A stretch of 55,551 nt of DNA, taken from Gammaproteobacteria bacterium. GTDB lineage: Bacteria; Pseudomonadota; Gammaproteobacteria; GCA-001735895. Below the pieces are notes generated by a model that saw nothing but the letters and a program-made list of their open reading frames with translations, had not been told where the DNA came from and did not search any database. The position numbers were made by a program, and so were the translations under genes. Below, piece after piece: positions 6,677 to 42,586 of this stretch. Each line of letters begins with the position of its first letter. Position 1 is the stretch's first letter. The stretch is taken from contig JAUVCH010000012.1 of assembly GCA_030595795.1 (NCBI GenBank), positions 1-55,551 of the forward strand, given 5' to 3'.

Positions 6677-7546
6677 ATGTTTGACGGCTTTGATCAAAAA
6701 CTCATCGATCTCGGTGATGCTAAAATTAATTTAAAAACAGGTGGCAGCGGCTCTGCTCTTTTACTCCTGCATGGCTTCCCGCAATCGCATGTTCACTGGC
6801 ACCTGGTCGCTCCGATACTCGCAGCGGAATTTACCCTGGTGATACCCGATTTACGTGGCTATGGCGACAGCATCGGTCCAAAACCCGATCCTGAACACCA
6901 CAATTATTGCAAACGTACGATGGCTAATGACATGGTCACGGTAATGGAACAATTGGGTTTTAACGAGTTTCGCCTGGCCGGACACGATAGAGGTGCGCGT
7001 GTTGCCTATCGACTCACATTGGATCATCCAGAACGGGTTACACATTTAGCCAGTATCGACGTGGTACCGACTATAGATGTTTGGGAAGCGATGGATTGGA
7101 GTGCATCTATAAGCGCTTTTCACTGGCCTTTTCTGGCACAACCCGCACCCGTACCGGAAAAAATGATTGGCGCTGACCCGGAGTTTTTCCTGCACCATTT
7201 GCTCGAACGTTGGGTAGGTGACGGTAAACCTCTGTCCAAATCTGCGGTGGCAGAATACTGCAGACACATCCATAAGGCATCAGTGATCGAAGCCATGGTC
7301 GAAGATTATCGTGCTGGGGCGACGATTGATCTAATGCATGACCAGCAGGACAGAGACGCTAAGAGGAAAATCACCTGCCCGGTGTTCGTTCCCTGGGGCA
7401 AACAATATATGGCTAAATCCCTACTGCCTGTCTGGCAACGCTGGGCCGATAACGTGACTGAGTTACAACTCGATTGCGGGCATTTTATTGCCGAGGAAGA
7501 ACCTGAAATTTGTGCGGAAGCGCTTATTGAATTCTTTAGCCGATAG
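6677..7546 (+). CDS. Alpha/beta hydrolase, haloacetate dehalogenase-like
   Basis: 289 residues. The nucleophile elbow is GHDRGAR, with Asp where most esterases have Ser; this is the signature of haloacetate/fluoroacetate dehalogenases. Other landmarks are the oxyanion motif LLHGFPQSHVHW, the DLRGYGDS block, a Trp in the cap region (FHWPF) and the catalytic His in DCGHFIAEEEP. By family it would replace a halogen on a short 2-haloacid by hydrolysis; epoxide hydrolases share much of the pattern and cannot be excluded. A GNAT gene follows 45 bp later. Confidence 0.8.
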   Translation: MFDGFDQKLIDLGDAKINLKTGGSGSALLLLHGFPQSHVHWHLVAPILAAEFTLVIPDLRGYGDSIGPKPDPEHHNYCKRTMANDMVTVMEQLGFNEFRLAGHDRGARVAYRLTLDHPERVTHLASIDVVPTIDVWEAMDWSASISAFHWPFLAQPAPVPEKMIGADPEFFLHHLLERWVGDGKPLSKSAVAEYCRHIHKASVIEAMVEDYRAGATIDLMHDQQDRDAKRKITCPVFVPWGKQYMAKSLLPVWQRWADNVTELQLDCGHFIAEEEPEICAEALIEFFSR

Positions 7547-7591
7547 GCCTGAGTAGATATCAAATGAAACCAGGAAACATCTGATCAAGTC

Positions 7592-8068
7592 ATGAACAAG
7601 GACTTTACCATACGAACCGCAACTCCCGCCGACTATGACGCTGTCGGAGCACTGACCTGGGATCTGTTATACGAACTGTCTCCTGAGTGGACTGCCGAAC
7701 ATAGTAAAGAATCTTTTGTCGAGACATCAAACTCACTTTTATCTGAAGGGAATAATTTCTGGGCACTAGTCGCGGAGTCTAACGATGAAATTATTGCCAC
7801 ACTAAATATTAACCAATGCGCCGCCATCTATGCCGGTGGTGTATTTGGGGAGATAACCGAGTTATACATCAAACCAGAATTCAGGTCACAAGGTATTGGT
7901 GTCCGGCTTATCGAGTCAGCAAAGGAATTTAGTTCTGATAAGGGATGGTCAATTCTCGAAGTTGGCGCGCCTTCGCCAGAAGAGTGGCAAAGGACAATTG
8001 ATTTTTATATAAAGAATGGGTTTAGCATGATAGGGCCTCGTTTGGAGATTAGCATCTCTGATTCCTGA
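7592..8068 (+). CDS. GNAT-family N-acetyltransferase
   Basis: 158 residues, a complete GNAT domain. The N-terminus IRTATPADYDAVGAL is typical, and the acetyl-CoA pyrophosphate loop is visible in PEFRSQGIGVRLIESA (Q/RxxGxG/A). The substrate, which could be a small molecule or a protein, is not deducible. It follows the dehalogenase-like gene in the same direction and may be cotranscribed. Confidence 0.85.
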   Translation: MNKDFTIRTATPADYDAVGALTWDLLYELSPEWTAEHSKESFVETSNSLLSEGNNFWALVAESNDEIIATLNINQCAAIYAGGVFGEITELYIKPEFRSQGIGVRLIESAKEFSSDKGWSILEVGAPSPEEWQRTIDFYIKNGFSMIGPRLEISISDS

Positions 8069-37008: not shown

Positions 37009-37316
37009 ATCTATAGATCCAGCTTACCTTGTAAGTAGCCACTGGAAATTTCACAGAATTCACCTTCTGGAATTTGTTGTTTTGCATAGATATTGGCTCT
37101 GGACAAATCCGAAGAAGTATCCATCTTGTAGATGACTCCTCTTTTTAATAATATTGTCGCGGTAGAACTTGGGAGTACTACTATTAGCATAACGAAACCA
37201 TAGCATAATTGAGTTACGTGCCCTTCAAATTCCCAGGTGGTGACCGTAGGGCGCGGGCGCTAAGGGCTTCGCCCTTTATCCACCGCTGTTACTCGGATTT
37301 AGATTTTAGTGTCGAG
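37009..37316. other. Gap between yaiI and the peptidase gene: possible small ORF and REP-like hairpin
   Basis: On the minus strand ATG 37190 opens a 59-codon frame ending with TAG at 37011, two bases before yaiI. It has a hydrophobic start (MLIVVLPSSTATILL) but no Shine-Dalgarno and no recognised family, so it is only a possibility. Around 37230-37291 the sequence has CCGTAGGG, a hairpin AAGGGC-TTC-GCCCTT and TATCCACCGC, a layout like dispersed REP-type palindromes of gammaproteobacteria or a weak terminator. It may mark the left edge of the accessory island. Confidence 0.3.
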
Positions 37317-38963
37317 TCAATACGCCTCAACACATTTTCCAAACTCATTAATCCCCGCACTTTGAATCACCTTAACCAAGTCAGTGATATTTTTTGAATA
37401 GGAAATGTGGCAATAAACAGGATGATTTCTATCACTATCAGTCGTATCGTATAAAACATCGAGCAAAGGTGTTGAATTGTCATGCGATATTCTTATAACA
37501 CCGATATGCAGGCTCATAGGGTTTATTTTTTCAGATAATGCCAATCTTACTCGAGATAAAACCTTCCGATTTGACCTTAATCTTTCATTAAGTTCATCAC
37601 CAAAATACGCCGCCAATTTAATGAACCTAGAAGAGACAATTAGCCCACTTACATTTAACCTGTATTTATCCCCTAAAAAATTGATTAATTTCGATAGCTC
37701 TGCCGCCTTTATTAAACCTGCTTTATTTAGTGTGTCTGGGCTAGTACGAATATTATTATGAGCCGCCACAATTAATTGTGTAGGTACAAACGACGGGTAA
37801 TCCGATGTTGGGCTCGAAGGGATCTCGGCTCCAGTCTTGGGTTTGGGCTCACTTGCGGAAAGAACTACAACTTCTTCGGTTTCTTCGGTTTCTTCGGTTT
37901 CTTCGGTTTCTTCGGTTTCTTCGGTTTCTTCGGTTTCTTCGGTTTCTTCGGTTTCTTCGGTTTCACTAGGTTCAATTTCTGCGGGCATCGTAGAAATTTT
38001 AAAGCGAACATTTGGCCCTAAGTTATCGTCATGAATATATAAATATTCTGTACCAGACTCGGCCATTCCAGGTTTATCTGAATTAGCACTTACTGGAGCG
38101 GACGATCTAAATCCGACCACGCATATCGCATGGCCTCCCACGGTGAGCAAGTTGCCAATAAGCAGAATCGGATATCCAGATCTTATAAATGAGGCGCAAG
38201 TACTCGAAAAACGTTCCCGACTAAATCCAAAGACATTATTCCCTTTTTTGACGTCTCCTTCAGTAATTAATGGCGCTAGCTCCTGTTCCTTAATAGCATC
38301 ACATATTTGCCATAGATTTAACCCCTGGGATGGGAAAACTCTTGATCCAAACGAATGGCTACTATGAGCCGATCGTGTAATTTCAGTCGTTGTAGGTATA
38401 GAGTGATGATCATCAAATGCAGAGGAATGTAGCATTGACCAAAGGCTGACTGTGGCACAGGCCGCAACACCAGTGTCCTGCTGTTGCCACGCGATTCCAT
38501 TTATTGTTAACTCGATACCTGCTATGTGAACATGATAATCTCGCGATGGGTCTTTTACTCGTGGCGTCTGAATATTTTCCTCTTCATACCAACATAACAC
38601 CGTCCTACCGAGTGGTGCCGACGAAATAGGCCTTAAAACAACAAACCCTAGATACGAATTTTGCATTATTTTAACGGATTTTGGACTACCCCCTGCCGCT
38701 CTCCTAAGTAATCCTCTATCAATCAACGTTGAGAAAAAATGTAACCTACGGCAGGTGTTTGGGTAGGGCTTAGAACTAACACTATAAAAGGCCGAGAACT
38801 CCGATAAGTAGTCTCTGTCAAAATACTGCGGTTCTTCGATGACGCTTTTAGCATATAAATCTGCCAAATAGAGTTGTAGATATCTAACTTGGCGTGTTTG
38901 ATCCGAAAGTTGTACTAACGGGTCATCGACACCGAATTTCGTTATTTTTATATTACATTTCAA
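37317..38963 (-). CDS. Papain-like cysteine peptidase with TEE-repeat linker, divergent from the Ub-like operon
   Basis: 548 residues, not assigned to a named family. Residues 155-180 carry WQQQDTGVAACATVSLW, where Gln162 would be the oxyanion residue and Cys169 the nucleophile; GGHAICVVGF gives His278, and YLYIHDDNLGP gives an Asp/Asn at 312-314. This Q-C-H-D/N order fits a papain/C39-like peptidase. Residues 1-130 form an alpha-helical N-terminal domain. Ten perfect TEE repeats (335-364) join the peptidase to a 180-residue C-terminal domain of unknown fold. No signal peptide. Downstream of an XRE regulator and a small gene in the same direction. In this context it could process or remove Ubl, or act as an effector; this is inference. 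Confidence 0.75.
   Translation of the reverse strand: MKCNIKITKFGVDDPLVQLSDQTRQVRYLQLYLADLYAKSVIEEPQYFDRDYLSEFSAFYSVSSKPYPNTCRRLHFFSTLIDRGLLRRAAGGSPKSVKIMQNSYLGFVVLRPISSAPLGRTVLCWYEEENIQTPRVKDPSRDYHVHIAGIELTINGIAWQQQDTGVAACATVSLWSMLHSSAFDDHHSIPTTTEITRSAHSSHSFGSRVFPSQGLNLWQICDAIKEQELAPLITEGDVKKGNNVFGFSRERFSSTCASFIRSGYPILLIGNLLTVGGHAICVVGFRSSAPVSANSDKPGMAESGTEYLYIHDDNLGPNVRFKISTMPAEIEPSETEETEETEETEETEETEETEETEETEETEEVVVLSASEPKPKTGAEIPSSPTSDYPSFVPTQLIVAAHNNIRTSPDTLNKAGLIKAAELSKLINFLGDKYRLNVSGLIVSSRFIKLAAYFGDELNERLRSNRKVLSRVRLALSEKINPMSLHIGVIRISHDNSTPLLDVLYDTTDSDRNHPVYCHISYSKNITDLVKVIQSAGINEFGKCVEAY
37872..37961 (-). repeat. In-frame 9-bp minisatellite, 10 perfect copies
   Basis: TTCTTCGGT is repeated ten times without a mismatch (plus-strand reading), encoding Thr-Glu-Glu ten times in the peptidase. 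Because the unit is 9 bp, slippage would change linker length without breaking the frame. Confidence 0.97.
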
Positions 38964-38998
38964 AACTTATATATGCTAAAAATACTAATCAGAAGCGA

Positions 38999-39205
38999 TC
39001 ACTTAACTAGCTTACTCATAGTTTCATTTGTGACTTGTGTTTCATACGCGCGTACGCGCTCGTTGAGGGCAGTTCTGTCAAATTGCTTTATTGCATCAAC
39101 TAATTCTTGACGTGTATCACTATCAATATTGACCTGATCCAGAACTGAAGACCAATCTGACTGAGGTATTGTCCATGGCGTATATTTTGTTTTTTTATCT
39201 CGCAT
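38999..39205 (-). CDS. Small hypothetical protein between the XRE regulator and the peptidase
   Basis: 68 residues from ATG 39205, with GGGAG seven bases upstream; the frame opens further out at 39247 without a site. It is charged and helical (DTRQELVDAIKQFDRTALNE) with no membrane segment and no family I recognise. Its position between the regulator and the cysteine peptidase, 35 bp before the latter, suggests an operon role such as an inhibitor or adaptor. Confidence 0.65.
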   Translation of the reverse strand: MRDKKTKYTPWTIPQSDWSSVLDQVNIDSDTRQELVDAIKQFDRTALNERVRAYETQVTNETMSKLVK

Positions 39206-39376
39206 AAATTCACTCCCGATTTGTATTTGGGCAAAAAAAAACATCAACTAAATCGATGCTTTAACTTATTTTTTGCGTGATTAATCATATTTTAGAGTAA
39301 CAAATATCCCTGAAAAGTCCTCGACAAGCACGGTAAACTTAATACATTTCAACGCTTTAGACAAGAAATCAATATA

Positions 39377-39751
39377 TTATTTTCTTTGCGTCCTTAAGAA
39401 AGCTATGTATTGCGCAACTAAACTCTCTTCGGATTCAGTTAAATCTGTGTTTTGTATCGCCATAGTTAACGATGACATAGGTTTTTCGGCAACGGTAGAA
39501 GCAATTACAGTTTCACTATTGATGCCAATCTCATCAGTTAAATAACCAGCCAATCTTAATAATTCCGAATAAGATACTTTATATAATTTACCTAATAATT
39601 CTAATTTTCGAGGAGATGGGTTAATCGCATTCCCTCTCTCTAACTGGGAAAGATATGCATTTGAAATACCTATTTTATTTTCCACATCGCGCAAACTAAA
39701 TCCTTTTAGCATTCTGAATTGCTTTAAATTATCACCAAGTTTGGAAGCCAT
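39377..39751 (-). CDS. XRE-family HTH regulator
   Basis: 124 residues. An N-terminal helix-turn-helix domain (LGDNLKQFRMLKGFSLRDVE, then KIGISNAYLSQLERG) is followed by a helical region ending SEESLVAQYIAFLRTQ. It reads away from the Ub-like operon, and the intergenic region holds two strong palindromes with the half-site GCTTGATA, so it most likely controls both arms. No ImmA/IrrE metallopeptidase domain is attached. Confidence 0.88.
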   Translation of the reverse strand: MASKLGDNLKQFRMLKGFSLRDVENKIGISNAYLSQLERGNAINPSPRKLELLGKLYKVSYSELLRLAGYLTDEIGINSETVIASTVAEKPMSSLTMAIQNTDLTESEESLVAQYIAFLRTQRK

Positions 39752-39795
39752 ATCACATTAATAACCGTTGATTTCAAAGGATTATGCATTTTTTT

Positions 39796-39840
39796 GCGTA
39801 CAATATCAAGCAACCTATTTTCTCGCTTGATATTATACGC
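39796..39840. promoter_or_regulatory. Operator O1: long inverted repeat between the XRE gene and the Ub-like operon
   Basis: Left arm GCGTACAATATCAAGC (39796-39811) and right arm GCTTGATATTATACGC (39825-39840) pair at 15 of 16 positions with a 13-bp spacer. It contains the half-sites TATCAAGC and GCTTGATA found again in O2. Confidence 0.7.
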
Positions 39841-39863
39841 GCCACATGCTTTAATTACTACGC

Positions 39864-39885
39864 AATGCTTGATATATCAAGCATT
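39864..39885. promoter_or_regulatory. Operator O2: 22-bp perfect palindrome upstream of the Ub-like operon
   Basis: The arm AATGCTTGATA (39864-39874) is followed directly by its exact complement (39875-39885). The GCTTGATA half-site recurs exactly 42 bp after the one in O1, four helical turns, so bound dimers would sit on the same face. Expected target of the XRE regulator. Confidence 0.75.
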
Positions 39886-39940
39886 GATCATTTGGATGAG
39901 AAATCATCTTTTTTTAATACATTTTATTAGGAATTTAATA

Positions 39941-40288
39941 ATGGATAGTAGATCAGAAATAATTGATGACAAAAATGCCGTGGTACAAGGTCAATTCTTG
40001 GATGAAATTGTGGATCTTGAAGAATATGCACAAAGAGGCGAAAGCCCTCCAAATTGTCGTGGCTACCGCATTCTCGTGAATGGAAAACATTTCATAGCGG
40101 AGGACTCGACTATCACTGGCAGAGAAGTGCTAATCCTTGCTGGTTTAGTACCACCAGAAACATACACATTAAGAGTAAAGAAAGCTGGCCAACGACCTGA
40201 AAAAGTAGAATTGGATGAGACTGTTGATTTACGCAGCCCAGGAATTGAGAAGTTCAAAGCTCTACCCAAGGATCAAACTGAGGGCTAA
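39941..40288 (+). CDS. Ubiquitin-like protein (multiubiquitin-type beta-grasp domain) with C-terminal Gly
   Basis: 115 residues from ATG 39941, which has AGGA eight bases upstream; the longer frame from 39794 would run through both operators and is rejected. Residues 1-40 are a charged extension; 42-109 (YRILVNGKHFIAEDSTITGR, then EVLILAGLVPPETYTLRVK) match the prokaryotic multiubiquitin domain as I know it, in a single copy. The chain ends QTEG, so a C-terminal glycine is already exposed and no processing is needed before adenylation. First gene of a four-gene operon with E2-, E1/JAB- and DUF6527-type proteins. Confidence 0.87.
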   Translation: MDSRSEIIDDKNAVVQGQFLDEIVDLEEYAQRGESPPNCRGYRILVNGKHFIAEDSTITGREVLILAGLVPPETYTLRVKKAGQRPEKVELDETVDLRSPGIEKFKALPKDQTEG

Positions 40289-40292
40289 TAAA

Positions 40293-40688
40293 GTGCGTAG
40301 AGAGTTTCAACTTTTAAAGGAAGATGCACAATTTCTTGAAGATTATGGCCTCCCTTGGGAGGCCGTTATCGATGGCTCTCAGTGGGTAATAATTCATGAT
40401 TTCCCAACACATGAAAGTTATAACGAACTTCAGGTAACTGCTGCTATCCGTCTCGAAACTGGCTATCCGATGACACAATTGGATATGGTTTATTTCTCTC
40501 CAGCGATAACCCGCGTGGATGGCCAGCCAATTGGTGCTACGCAGTGCTCTCAGCAAATTGATGGGAAACCCTATCAACGCTGGTCTCGACATAGAACCGC
40601 TCAAAACCCATGGATACCCGGCGAAGATAATCTGAGCTCTCATATAATATTAGTCGAAGAGTGGTTGGCTCGGGAGTTTTATCAATGA
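40293..40688 (+). CDS. E2-like (prokaryotic E2 family E) protein
   Basis: 131 residues from GTG 40293 with GAGGG eight bases upstream, only 4 bp after the Ubl stop; the frame opens at 40215 inside the Ubl gene. The pattern LDMVYFSPAI, then GKPYQRWSRHR and WIPGEDNLSSHI, matches prokaryotic E2 family E. There is no HPN motif. The only cysteine is Cys85 (ATQCSQQ), next to Ser86, in a loop between LDMVYFSP and WSRH. It should receive the Ubl from the E1 and pass it to a target. ATGA overlap with the E1/JAB gene. Confidence 0.82.
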   Translation: MRREFQLLKEDAQFLEDYGLPWEAVIDGSQWVIIHDFPTHESYNELQVTAAIRLETGYPMTQLDMVYFSPAITRVDGQPIGATQCSQQIDGKPYQRWSRHRTAQNPWIPGEDNLSSHIILVEEWLAREFYQ

Positions 40689-42112
40689 CTATTTGGAATG
40701 ATGATATTCCAGTCACATTGACAATGACCCAAACTCAACATCAGGTATTGGTGAAGCATTTGTTTCCAGGTGACGGCAAGGAATCTGCCGCTTTCGCAAT
40801 TTGTAATCGTCGAGCAGGAAACTTACGCCATCGCCTATTAGTGCATGAGATTCACGGAATTCCTTTCGAAATATGTACTGATCGTAGTCCGCATCGTGTC
40901 AGTTGGCCAACTGAGTATCTTGAACCCTGGCTAGAAATGGCAATAGAGCAAGATATGTCAATTATCAAAATCCATAGCCATCCGGGTGGCATGCTAAATT
41001 TCTCTGAAATAGATAATGAAAGTGATCGTCATTTTTTGCCCGCTGTCAGGGGATGGATCGAATCCGATACACCTCATGGCAGTGTGATTATGATACCTGA
41101 TGGCCAAATGCTAGGTCGCGTAATAAGAAATGATAATAGTTTTCTACCAATTTCTACGATATCGGTTATTGGTAGTAACCTTCAGTTTTGGCATCCAGAT
41201 AACGATAACTCCTTACCTGACTATACAGAATCCCATGCTCAAGCATTTGGAGCAGGAACCACAAAAATATTAGGACAGCTTTGGGCTGCGGTCATTGGCT
41301 GCTCAGGAACGGGTAGTATTTCTATAGAACAGTTACACCGTCTAGGCATTGGTACGCTCGTAATTGTTGATGATGATCGAGTTGAAGAAAGAAACTTAAA
41401 TCGAATATTAAATGCTACTCGTGAAGATGCAGAGAATCGCCTGTATAAAGCCGATGTCCTTGCTGAAGCAATCAGAAAATCAGGTTTGGATATTACTGTA
41501 ATACCCGTGACTAAAAACCTTTGGCACCCGGATACGGTACGCCTAGTTGCTCAATGTGATGTTCTATTCGGTTGTATGGATACGATCGACGGACGGTTTC
41601 TGCTAAATACACTGTCTAATTGTTACCTGCAACCATATTTTGATGTTGGTGTTCGACTCGATGCAATTCCAGATGGCACTGAGAAAGGTCGTATTAGAGA
41701 AGTCTGTGGCAGTGTCCACTATTTACAACCGGGAAAATCTAGTTTGATAAGTAGAGGCTTGTTTACAATGAAAGAGGTGGCTGCAGCAGGCCTAAAACGA
41801 CGCGATCCAGATGCCTATCAGCAACAAACAAAAGACGGATATATTCGTGGCATCAATGAACTACGCCCGGCGGTTATAAGCGTTAACATGTCCTTTGCCT
41901 CAAGGATGATTAATGATTTTCTATCCAGGATACATTGCTATCGGGAACAGTCAAACGATCAAATAGCATGGATTGAAGAAAGTCATAGCAGCTTAGAAAT
42001 ATTCGTAGAACCAGAAAGTGAACCATGCAAAATACTCAGCTTTCTAGTAGGTAAAGGAGACATAGTACCTCTTTTAAACCTCCCAGAATTATTTGAGGAG
42101 CAATTCAAATGA
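40685..42112 (+). CDS. JAB-E1 fusion: JAMM deubiquitinase-like domain plus ThiF/E1 adenylating domain
   Basis: 475 residues from ATG 40685 (GGGAG eight bases upstream). The N-terminal JAMM motif is intact: His97-x-His99-Pro100, Ser107, Asp110 in IKIHSHPGGMLNFSEID. The C-terminal E1/ThiF domain has the ATP-binding GCSGTGS (205-211), VDDDRVEERNLNR (229-240, including the Arg finger) and GCMDTIDGR. At 349-358 the sequence is PGKSSLISRG, where homologues I know have P-x-x-x-C-L-x-C-R-G, so Ser353 and Ser356 replace both cysteines. It should adenylate the Ubl C-terminus; the JAB domain should cleave conjugates. Ends in an ATGA overlap with the DUF6527-type gene. Confidence 0.9.
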   Translation: MTIWNDDIPVTLTMTQTQHQVLVKHLFPGDGKESAAFAICNRRAGNLRHRLLVHEIHGIPFEICTDRSPHRVSWPTEYLEPWLEMAIEQDMSIIKIHSHPGGMLNFSEIDNESDRHFLPAVRGWIESDTPHGSVIMIPDGQMLGRVIRNDNSFLPISTISVIGSNLQFWHPDNDNSLPDYTESHAQAFGAGTTKILGQLWAAVIGCSGTGSISIEQLHRLGIGTLVIVDDDRVEERNLNRILNATREDAENRLYKADVLAEAIRKSGLDITVIPVTKNLWHPDTVRLVAQCDVLFGCMDTIDGRFLLNTLSNCYLQPYFDVGVRLDAIPDGTEKGRIREVCGSVHYLQPGKSSLISRGLFTMKEVAAAGLKRRDPDAYQQQTKDGYIRGINELRPAVISVNMSFASRMINDFLSRIHCYREQSNDQIAWIEESHSSLEIFVEPESEPCKILSFLVGKGDIVPLLNLPELFEEQFK

Positions 42113-42444
42113 ATATATTCAAAATAGCTTTTAGCTGGTTTCTTTCTCTATTTACATCAACTTACCGGATGAAGTCAGTAGAGTCAGACTTGCCTACCAA
42201 ACTTAAAAGTAACACTCTTTACGTCGTGCATGAGGATGGATTTTTAGAGCACGCGGCTATGCTTTGCCCTTGTGGCTGTACAGAAATATTACAAATGAAC
42301 CTTATACCTGATGAAAGACCACTTTGGAAACTAACTAAACATGAAAACGGTACAGTTAGTCTTTATCCGTCAGTATGGCGAAAAAAAGGATGCAATTCAC
42401 ATTTTTGGCTTCGCAATAGTCATATTAAATGGTGTGATTTCTAA
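42109..42444 (+). CDS. DUF6527-type Cys/His protein of the Ub-like operon
   Basis: 111 residues. An N-terminal hydrophobic/aromatic helix (FKIAFSWFLSLF) precedes LYVVHEDGFLEHAAMLCPCG, with Cys53, Cys55 and Cys57, and a C-terminal GCNSHFWLRNSHIKWC with Cys95, His98, His105 and Cys109. These residues could form one or two zinc sites. This family regularly closes bacterial ubiquitination-like operons; an adaptor, E3-like or peptidase role is possible but unproven. Translation is coupled to the JAB-E1 gene. Confidence 0.78.
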   Translation: MNIFKIAFSWFLSLFTSTYRMKSVESDLPTKLKSNTLYVVHEDGFLEHAAMLCPCGCTEILQMNLIPDERPLWKLTKHENGTVSLYPSVWRKKGCNSHFWLRNSHIKWCDF

Positions 42445-42586
42445 GGGCACAATACCTAAGTTAGTCGATCCAGTCTTGTCTCAAGATTTACCTCTACTGT
42501 AAGCAACAGCCTTTGAGGGTTTAATTTTGAGTCACAACCAACTCTTTCCGGGCGAAAATAACTTGCCCTCATGATACGCTAAAACC

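Follow-up and report, generated by a model that had tools for sequence, protein, structure and literature searches.

The window analysed here, 55,551 nucleotides of contig JAUVCH010000012.1 from a Gammaproteobacteria bacterium (assembly GCA_030595795.1), carries a ubiquitination-like operon of four tightly coupled genes at positions 39941-42444 on the + strand, as read from its open reading frames (ORFs). The first gene (39941-40288) encodes a BubA-like ubiquitin-like protein (Ubl) of 115 amino acids, in which one Multi_ubiq domain (residues 42-109; PF14452, E = 3.2e-14) lies behind an N-terminal tail and the C-terminus reads DQTEG. It is followed by a gene for a BubB-like E2 with a GTG start (40293-40688; 131 amino acids; Prok-E2_E, PF14462, 3.3e-39) and by one for a BubCD-like JAB-E1 fusion (40685-42112; 475 amino acids), which joins an N-terminal JAMM/JAB domain (Prok-JAB, PF14464, 7.7e-7) to a C-terminal ThiF domain (PF00899, 1.5e-25). 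The last gene (42109-42444) encodes a DUF6527 protein of 111 amino acids (PF20137, 2.2e-22), a predicted Ser-His peptidase. All of these Pfam matches exceeded the curated cut-offs. The initial annotation had described the four genes in this order and assigned their families; the ORF coordinates, the 4-bp spacing, the two ATGA overlaps and the terminal Gly of the Ubl were as it described them, and the Pfam profile search that it had suggested recovered all four families.

Sequence searches of the PDB identified the kind of operon. The closest solved chain to the JAB-E1 fusion was Citrobacter BubCD (9ea4; 4.4e-90 over residues 12-470), and the top match of the E2 was Citrobacter BubB (9eae; 2.4e-26). 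The Ubl matched a multi-ubiquitin protein (9d59; 1.4e-14) and Citrobacter BubA (9ea8; 7.4e-11), with a weaker match to BilA (8u38; 3.9e-6). Bil operons follow the same logic of Ubl, E1, E2 and deconjugase as the window. However, the window E2 and JAB-E1 matched Bub chains best, no Bil-named chain was among their PDB matches at the thresholds used, and the Ubl was closer to Bub chains than to BilA. With Citrobacter BubA, BubB and BubCD as the solved chains nearest to it, the operon is, judging from sequence, Bub (bacterial ubiquitination-like) and not Bil. The initial annotation had likened the gene content to operons called ubiquitination-like; this likeness held, and the Citrobacter chains give the kind its name. 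The name Bub is used in PMC13373217 (EMBO J 2026), whose available part gives 544 operons and whose reference list has Gong et al. 2025 and Ye et al. 2026 as the founding papers. The window agrees with Bub in the families of its Ubl, its E2 and its fused JAB-E1, whereas its BubA has one Ubl domain and Citrobacter BubA reaches at least residue 229, according to the name of 9ea8.

The arrangement of the operon was compared across 81 E2 loci, consisting of the window and 80 confirmed loci out of 175, on which the operon, E2 and BubA counts rest. The DUF6527 gene lay directly 3' of the JAB-E1 gene (overlapping it or separated from it by no more than 7 bp, according to the start calls) in 76 of the 81 loci, and the contigs of the other five stop 120-868 bp past the last operon gene found; this arrangement does not arise by chance. 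The order Ubl, E2, JAB-E1, DUF6527 was kept in all 76 loci whose contig has room. Local scans of L130 and L131 gave no E2 match. By hand count, BubA ended in Gly in 51 loci and formed a fusion with the E2 in 16; in 11 it carried an extension of one or two residues, and three tails were unresolved. An earlier count by ORF length had put the BubA-BubB fusions at 18 and was lowered after the tails were inspected. The fused loci (L043, L057, L037, L044 and 12 others) have a single continuous Ubl-E2 ORF with a Gly-ended motif, mostly DQTEG, at the junction. In the fused and extended forms, a protease would be needed to expose the Gly.

In the alignment of the JAB-E1 with 78 relatives, the JAMM residues E41, H105, H107, S115 and D118 were kept in 76-77, and the GCSGTGS loop (213-219) was kept in 77-78 at each position except C214; the initial annotation had noted both motifs as intact in the window. 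In the E2, no alignment column contained Cys in more than 6 of the 81 loci, and thus no conserved Cys was found. Ser98, within the motif QRWSRHR, is the candidate acceptor; it was present in 81/81 loci, a count biased by the scan patterns, since one of the two itself contained QRWSRHR. WSRH with the same Ser was also kept in all five E2s recovered without that pattern, by family profile or tblastn (L106 and L126-L129). In the E1 half, Tyr394 was found in 77 of the 78 relatives, the remaining one having a gap, and its equivalent in 6/6 E1s whose tail the pattern caught, among eight further E1s. The equivalent position is Tyr in PDB 9ea4_A and Phe in 9eav_A, and because of this difference the Phe seems to have been introduced by the depositors. 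The absence of a conserved E2 Cys and the conservation of Ser98 and Tyr394 fit ester intermediates, which Bub is reported to use instead of thioesters.

For the DUF6527 protein, alignments of 76 and 56 rows were used, and the structure model was built from 56 of the 76 sequences. C53, S88, C95 and H98 were invariant in all 76 relatives. Eight further loci had the Pro-Ser...His pattern in seven cases and the strict CPCGC motif in four. The AlphaFold2 model was confident (predicted local distance difference test score, pLDDT, 87.6), and no convincing solved relative was found by sequence (best PDB E-value 0.75). Bub operons are reported to contain a serine protease gene with a Ser-His dyad. The protein may be a Ser-His peptidase with Ser88 and His98 as candidate residues; the equally invariant C53, C95 and H98 allow a metal site as an alternative. 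The family named in the initial annotation is correct, and the protein it called Cys/His-rich may rather be a predicted Ser-His peptidase. A search of the open-licence literature found no paper linking DUF6527 with ubiquitin-like proteins. DUF6527 also occurs outside Bub: it was found in Caulobacter vibrioides, one of 14 control genomes in which a Prok-E2_E search gave no match.

Three genes on the - strand, which were missed in the first reading of this stretch, lie next to the operon and diverge from it. The nearest (39377-39751) encodes an XRE-type helix-turn-helix (HTH) protein of 124 amino acids, a predicted repressor that matched Pfam HTH_3 (1.8e-11) and PADLOC capH (1.1e-10); its family comprised 26 proteins at E <= 1e-10, its own included. 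The small gene p82 (38999-39247), whose conserved part runs from an in-frame ATG at 39205 (MRDKKTKYTPWTIP), has a homologue in another locus, L123, and encodes a predicted protease partner or inhibitor. The third gene (37317-38963) encodes a predicted papain-like cysteine protease of 548 amino acids. Papain-like enzymes use a Gln-Cys-His-Asp/Asn catalytic set, and the protease carries this set as Q162, C169, H278 and D312/D313; none of the five residues varied among 31 aligned sequences, that of the window being one of them (26 of 120 listed homologues used). The protease had no Pfam match above the cut-off, and neither it nor p82 matched M78, WYL, STAS or kinase families in Pfam. The divergent promoter region contains an 18-bp palindrome, TGCTTGATATATCAAGCA (39866-39883), which is a predicted operator. 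Within the protease gene, a perfect 9-bp tandem repeat of 10.3 copies (37872-37964) encodes a (TEE)n linker. A long EEA-rich linker occurs at a similar place in the homologue from L123, so the length of the linker may vary quickly.

The same trio was found at L123, with an HTH match of 1.6e-40, a p82-like gene (1.2e-23) and a protease match of 69% over 359 amino acids. There the trio points away from an operon of the composition Multi_ubiq / DUF6791-ThiF / DUF6527, and the matching gap contains three copies of the window palindrome with one mismatch each. When L123 was scanned with up to three mismatches, four matches were obtained, the fourth inside the E1 gene; four were reached in 0/200 shuffles. 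The two loci also have a DUF6527 gene in common. However, L123 has its own E1, DUF6791-ThiF, and its operon had no Prok-E2_E or JAB match. As L123 combines this trio and near-copies of the palindrome with another type of Ubl operon, the three genes may constitute a portable control module. Moreover, the HTH, protease and E2 homologues closest to those of the window lie on contigs of the same sizes, 5827 and 6343 bases, with the same source label (ncbi), and these matching sizes make it likely that two further loci are of the window type. Sizes 3043, 6539 and 22063 also occurred in both the HTH and the protease homologue lists.

Across its wider distribution, the protease family is not linked to Ubl operons. 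We used 26 protease loci, consisting of three of four plasmid matches (H21 not included), three non-window genomes of the class and 20 places from the phylum search; several of these contigs end nearby. The protease was present in 4 of 369 genomes of the class, its own included. The pattern GCTTGA-N4-TCAnGC was absent from the 25 protease loci other than L123, and a looser TTGA-N4-TCAA occurred in L168, within the protease gene. No protease ORF was found in L171 by local scan. In L109 (NZ_CP080527.1, a Mesorhizobium plasmid), a distant protease homologue adjoins a different Ubl / E2-like / JAB-E1-like operon.

The operon and the trio lie in a single block of ~5.56 kb (37009-42569) between yaiI and a GIY-YIG gene, which two relatives lack (empty sites in L084 and L086). 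In these genomes of the same genus, G011 and G027, the match to yaiI is separated from that to the GIY-YIG gene by 59 and 79 bp, and there was no match to window positions 37009-~42569 between the flanking genes (blastn E <= 1e-5). The E2, DUF6527 and protease families were found in 0/30 same-genus genomes (62-100% complete). Neither a tRNA nor a direct repeat of at least 8 bp marks the ends of the block. An insert between yaiI and the GIY-YIG gene had been proposed initially; the insertion is borne out by the empty sites in G011 and G027, and its extent proved larger than proposed. A single insertion event is the simplest reading of the block, although it is not proven. Between the protease gene and yaiI, still within the block, about 300 bp (37011-37316) contain only short, unassigned ORFs, such as one of 59 amino acids at 37011-37190 on the - strand, possibly a remnant.

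Alternatively, the trio could be an independent neighbour of the Bub operon, both having gathered at one insertion hotspot, with the HTH protein repressing its own genes only. This is in line with the 24 of 26 protease loci that have no Ubl genes, and with L107 (NZ_CP094674.1, a Hymenobacter plasmid), where a distant protease homologue adjoins a caspase-family gene. However, the trio of L123 with its near-copies of the palindrome diverges from a different Ubl operon, two more contigs of equal sizes likely carry the same combination, and the empty sites show a single block. We consider such a gathering possible but doubtful.

Other Bub operons also have candidate regulatory genes upstream. The scan of upstream neighbours covered 150 of 154 proteins in 75 Bub loci (L080 and L081 were left out; L031, L040 and L062 have no room upstream), and Pfam detected Peptidase_M78 in 25 proteins, HTH_3 in 35, Sigma70_r2 in 12 and subtilase in five. 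An HTH and an HExxH protein occurred together in 25 loci, an HExxH protein alone in seven, an HTH protein alone in 11 and neither in 32. According to section 7 of PMC13373217, CapW, CapH+CapP or CapK+CapS are frequent but not defining neighbours of Bub, whereas the window is flanked by HTH, p82 and papain-like protease genes. The closest parallel is CapH+CapP, an HTH repressor with an M78 peptidase: the window HTH matches PADLOC capH, and a divergent HTH gene with a peptidase gene stands beside Bub, as in 25/75 loci. Whereas CapP is an M78 metallopeptidase, the peptidase of the window is predicted to be a cysteine protease of the papain-like type, and a small partner gene accompanies it. Since the peptidase-plus-HTH slot recurs beside other Bub operons, the window would fill this slot with a different protease class, which supports a control role by analogy only. 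No paper with a papain-like protease in this control place was found among the titles and abstract starts listed from the open-licence literature. A third protease class occurs nearby in L034, L035, L036, L044 and L048, each confirmed singly, where a subtilase (Peptidase_S8) gene lies immediately upstream of the Bub operon, in three of them beside an HTH gene. In the Cyclobacteriaceae Bub locus L043, a 186-amino-acid protein (7036-7593), sigma-like by eye and with no Pfam match, occupies the HTH place near a protease homologue.

Two other roles were considered for the protease. Together with p82 as its inhibitor, it could act like a toxin-antitoxin pair and kill or stall cells upon infection, with the HTH protein as an autorepressor. 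A small same-strand ORF lay upstream of the protease in 20/25 loci by a crude count, and the best structural matches of the protease include staphopain, which has also been solved with its inhibitor staphostatin. However, conservation of the small ORFs is poor and chance ORFs contribute to the count; we regard this pair as rather unlikely. The statement that a small ORF always precedes the protease was rejected as too strong at 20/25. Alternatively, the protease could be a third deconjugase that cuts BubA from its targets; staphopain and C39 matches scored equally well or higher, and a Ubl gene is missing from the vicinity of 24/26 protease loci, making this role improbable.

On balance, we lean towards a complete Bub operon that conjugates BubA, likely via esters, with the JAB and DUF6527 proteins predicted to free or remove BubA and with the predicted repressor and the predicted papain-like protease nearby as its likely switch. 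As in its family, the E1 half of BubCD would adenylate the C-terminal Gly of BubA, which would then pass via the E1 (candidate Tyr394) to Ser98 of BubB and on to a target protein. The JAMM half and DUF6527 (candidate Ser88/His98) are predicted to mature the fused BubA-BubB of relatives and to deconjugate BubA. From the shared palindrome, the HTH protein is predicted to bind TGCTTGATATATCAAGCA in the promoter region common to both transcription units and to keep the two of them repressed. Upon a signal, the papain-like protease would remove the repressor, and p82 would likely be its inhibitor or substrate, by analogy with CapH+CapP. A bolder version, in which HTH, inhibitor and papain-like protease form a portable switch with the same operator, placed before Bub here and before a DUF6791-ThiF operon elsewhere, and in which the protease destroys the repressor as a cysteine-protease counterpart of CapH+CapP, is offered tentatively and is more doubtful than the Bub mechanism.

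Several points weigh against the favoured reading as a whole. The common block might merely reflect a clustering of defence-like genes. Ubl or E1 genes stood beside 2 of 26 protease loci (L109 and L123) and the HTH gene beside one; the protease family, present in 21 of 398 genomes of the phylum, its own included, is widespread without Ubl genes. Among the 81 Bub loci, the protease occurred in the window and L043 only, and L043 lacks the window-type HTH. Equal contig sizes can be chance, and an E2 match from another source, P0026, is also on a contig of 5827 bases. The palindrome was defined on the window first and then tested in L123; its one match in the window follows from the way it was defined, and at up to three mismatches a match was also obtained in 29 of 100 shuffles. 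The structural matches were weak, with best Foldseek E-values against the PDB of 1.7e-3 for the protease model and 0.11 for the DUF6527 model.

The initial annotation had also linked the operon to phage defence. Papers on Bil bear titles that present it as phage defence. For Bub, the link is suggestive only and weaker than had been claimed, as phage protection by Bub is not demonstrated according to the available part of PMC13373217. The same part leaves open a general role in stress response, and the operon could accordingly be a stress-response protein modifier that is not anti-phage. However, a block beside a repressor-like control module fits a mobile defence system, and so do the sporadic distribution, with nine of the 398 genomes from the phylum positive at E <= 0.001 (six above the cut-off, its own included), and the E2 matches on 80 of 72,556 plasmid records. 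A review groups Bub with phage defence. We consider the stress-response role unlikely, albeit possible. Taken together, the gene arrangement observed initially was confirmed, and its interpretation was borne out in part.

Bub is among the latest-described bacterial relatives of eukaryotic ubiquitination, and its role is unsettled in the literature available in part. The core of the operon in the window appears to be an ordinary Bub and a new member of this kind; the novelty would lie in the control module. The locus makes clear predictions as to which residues form the esters, BubB Ser98 and BubCD Tyr394, and for Ser88 and His98 of DUF6527. In the window, a Bub operon is paired with a candidate trigger, a module of predicted protease and repressor whose operator can be read. 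If this module has indeed been swapped between two types of Ubl operon, control would evolve separately from conjugation, each as a plug-in part.

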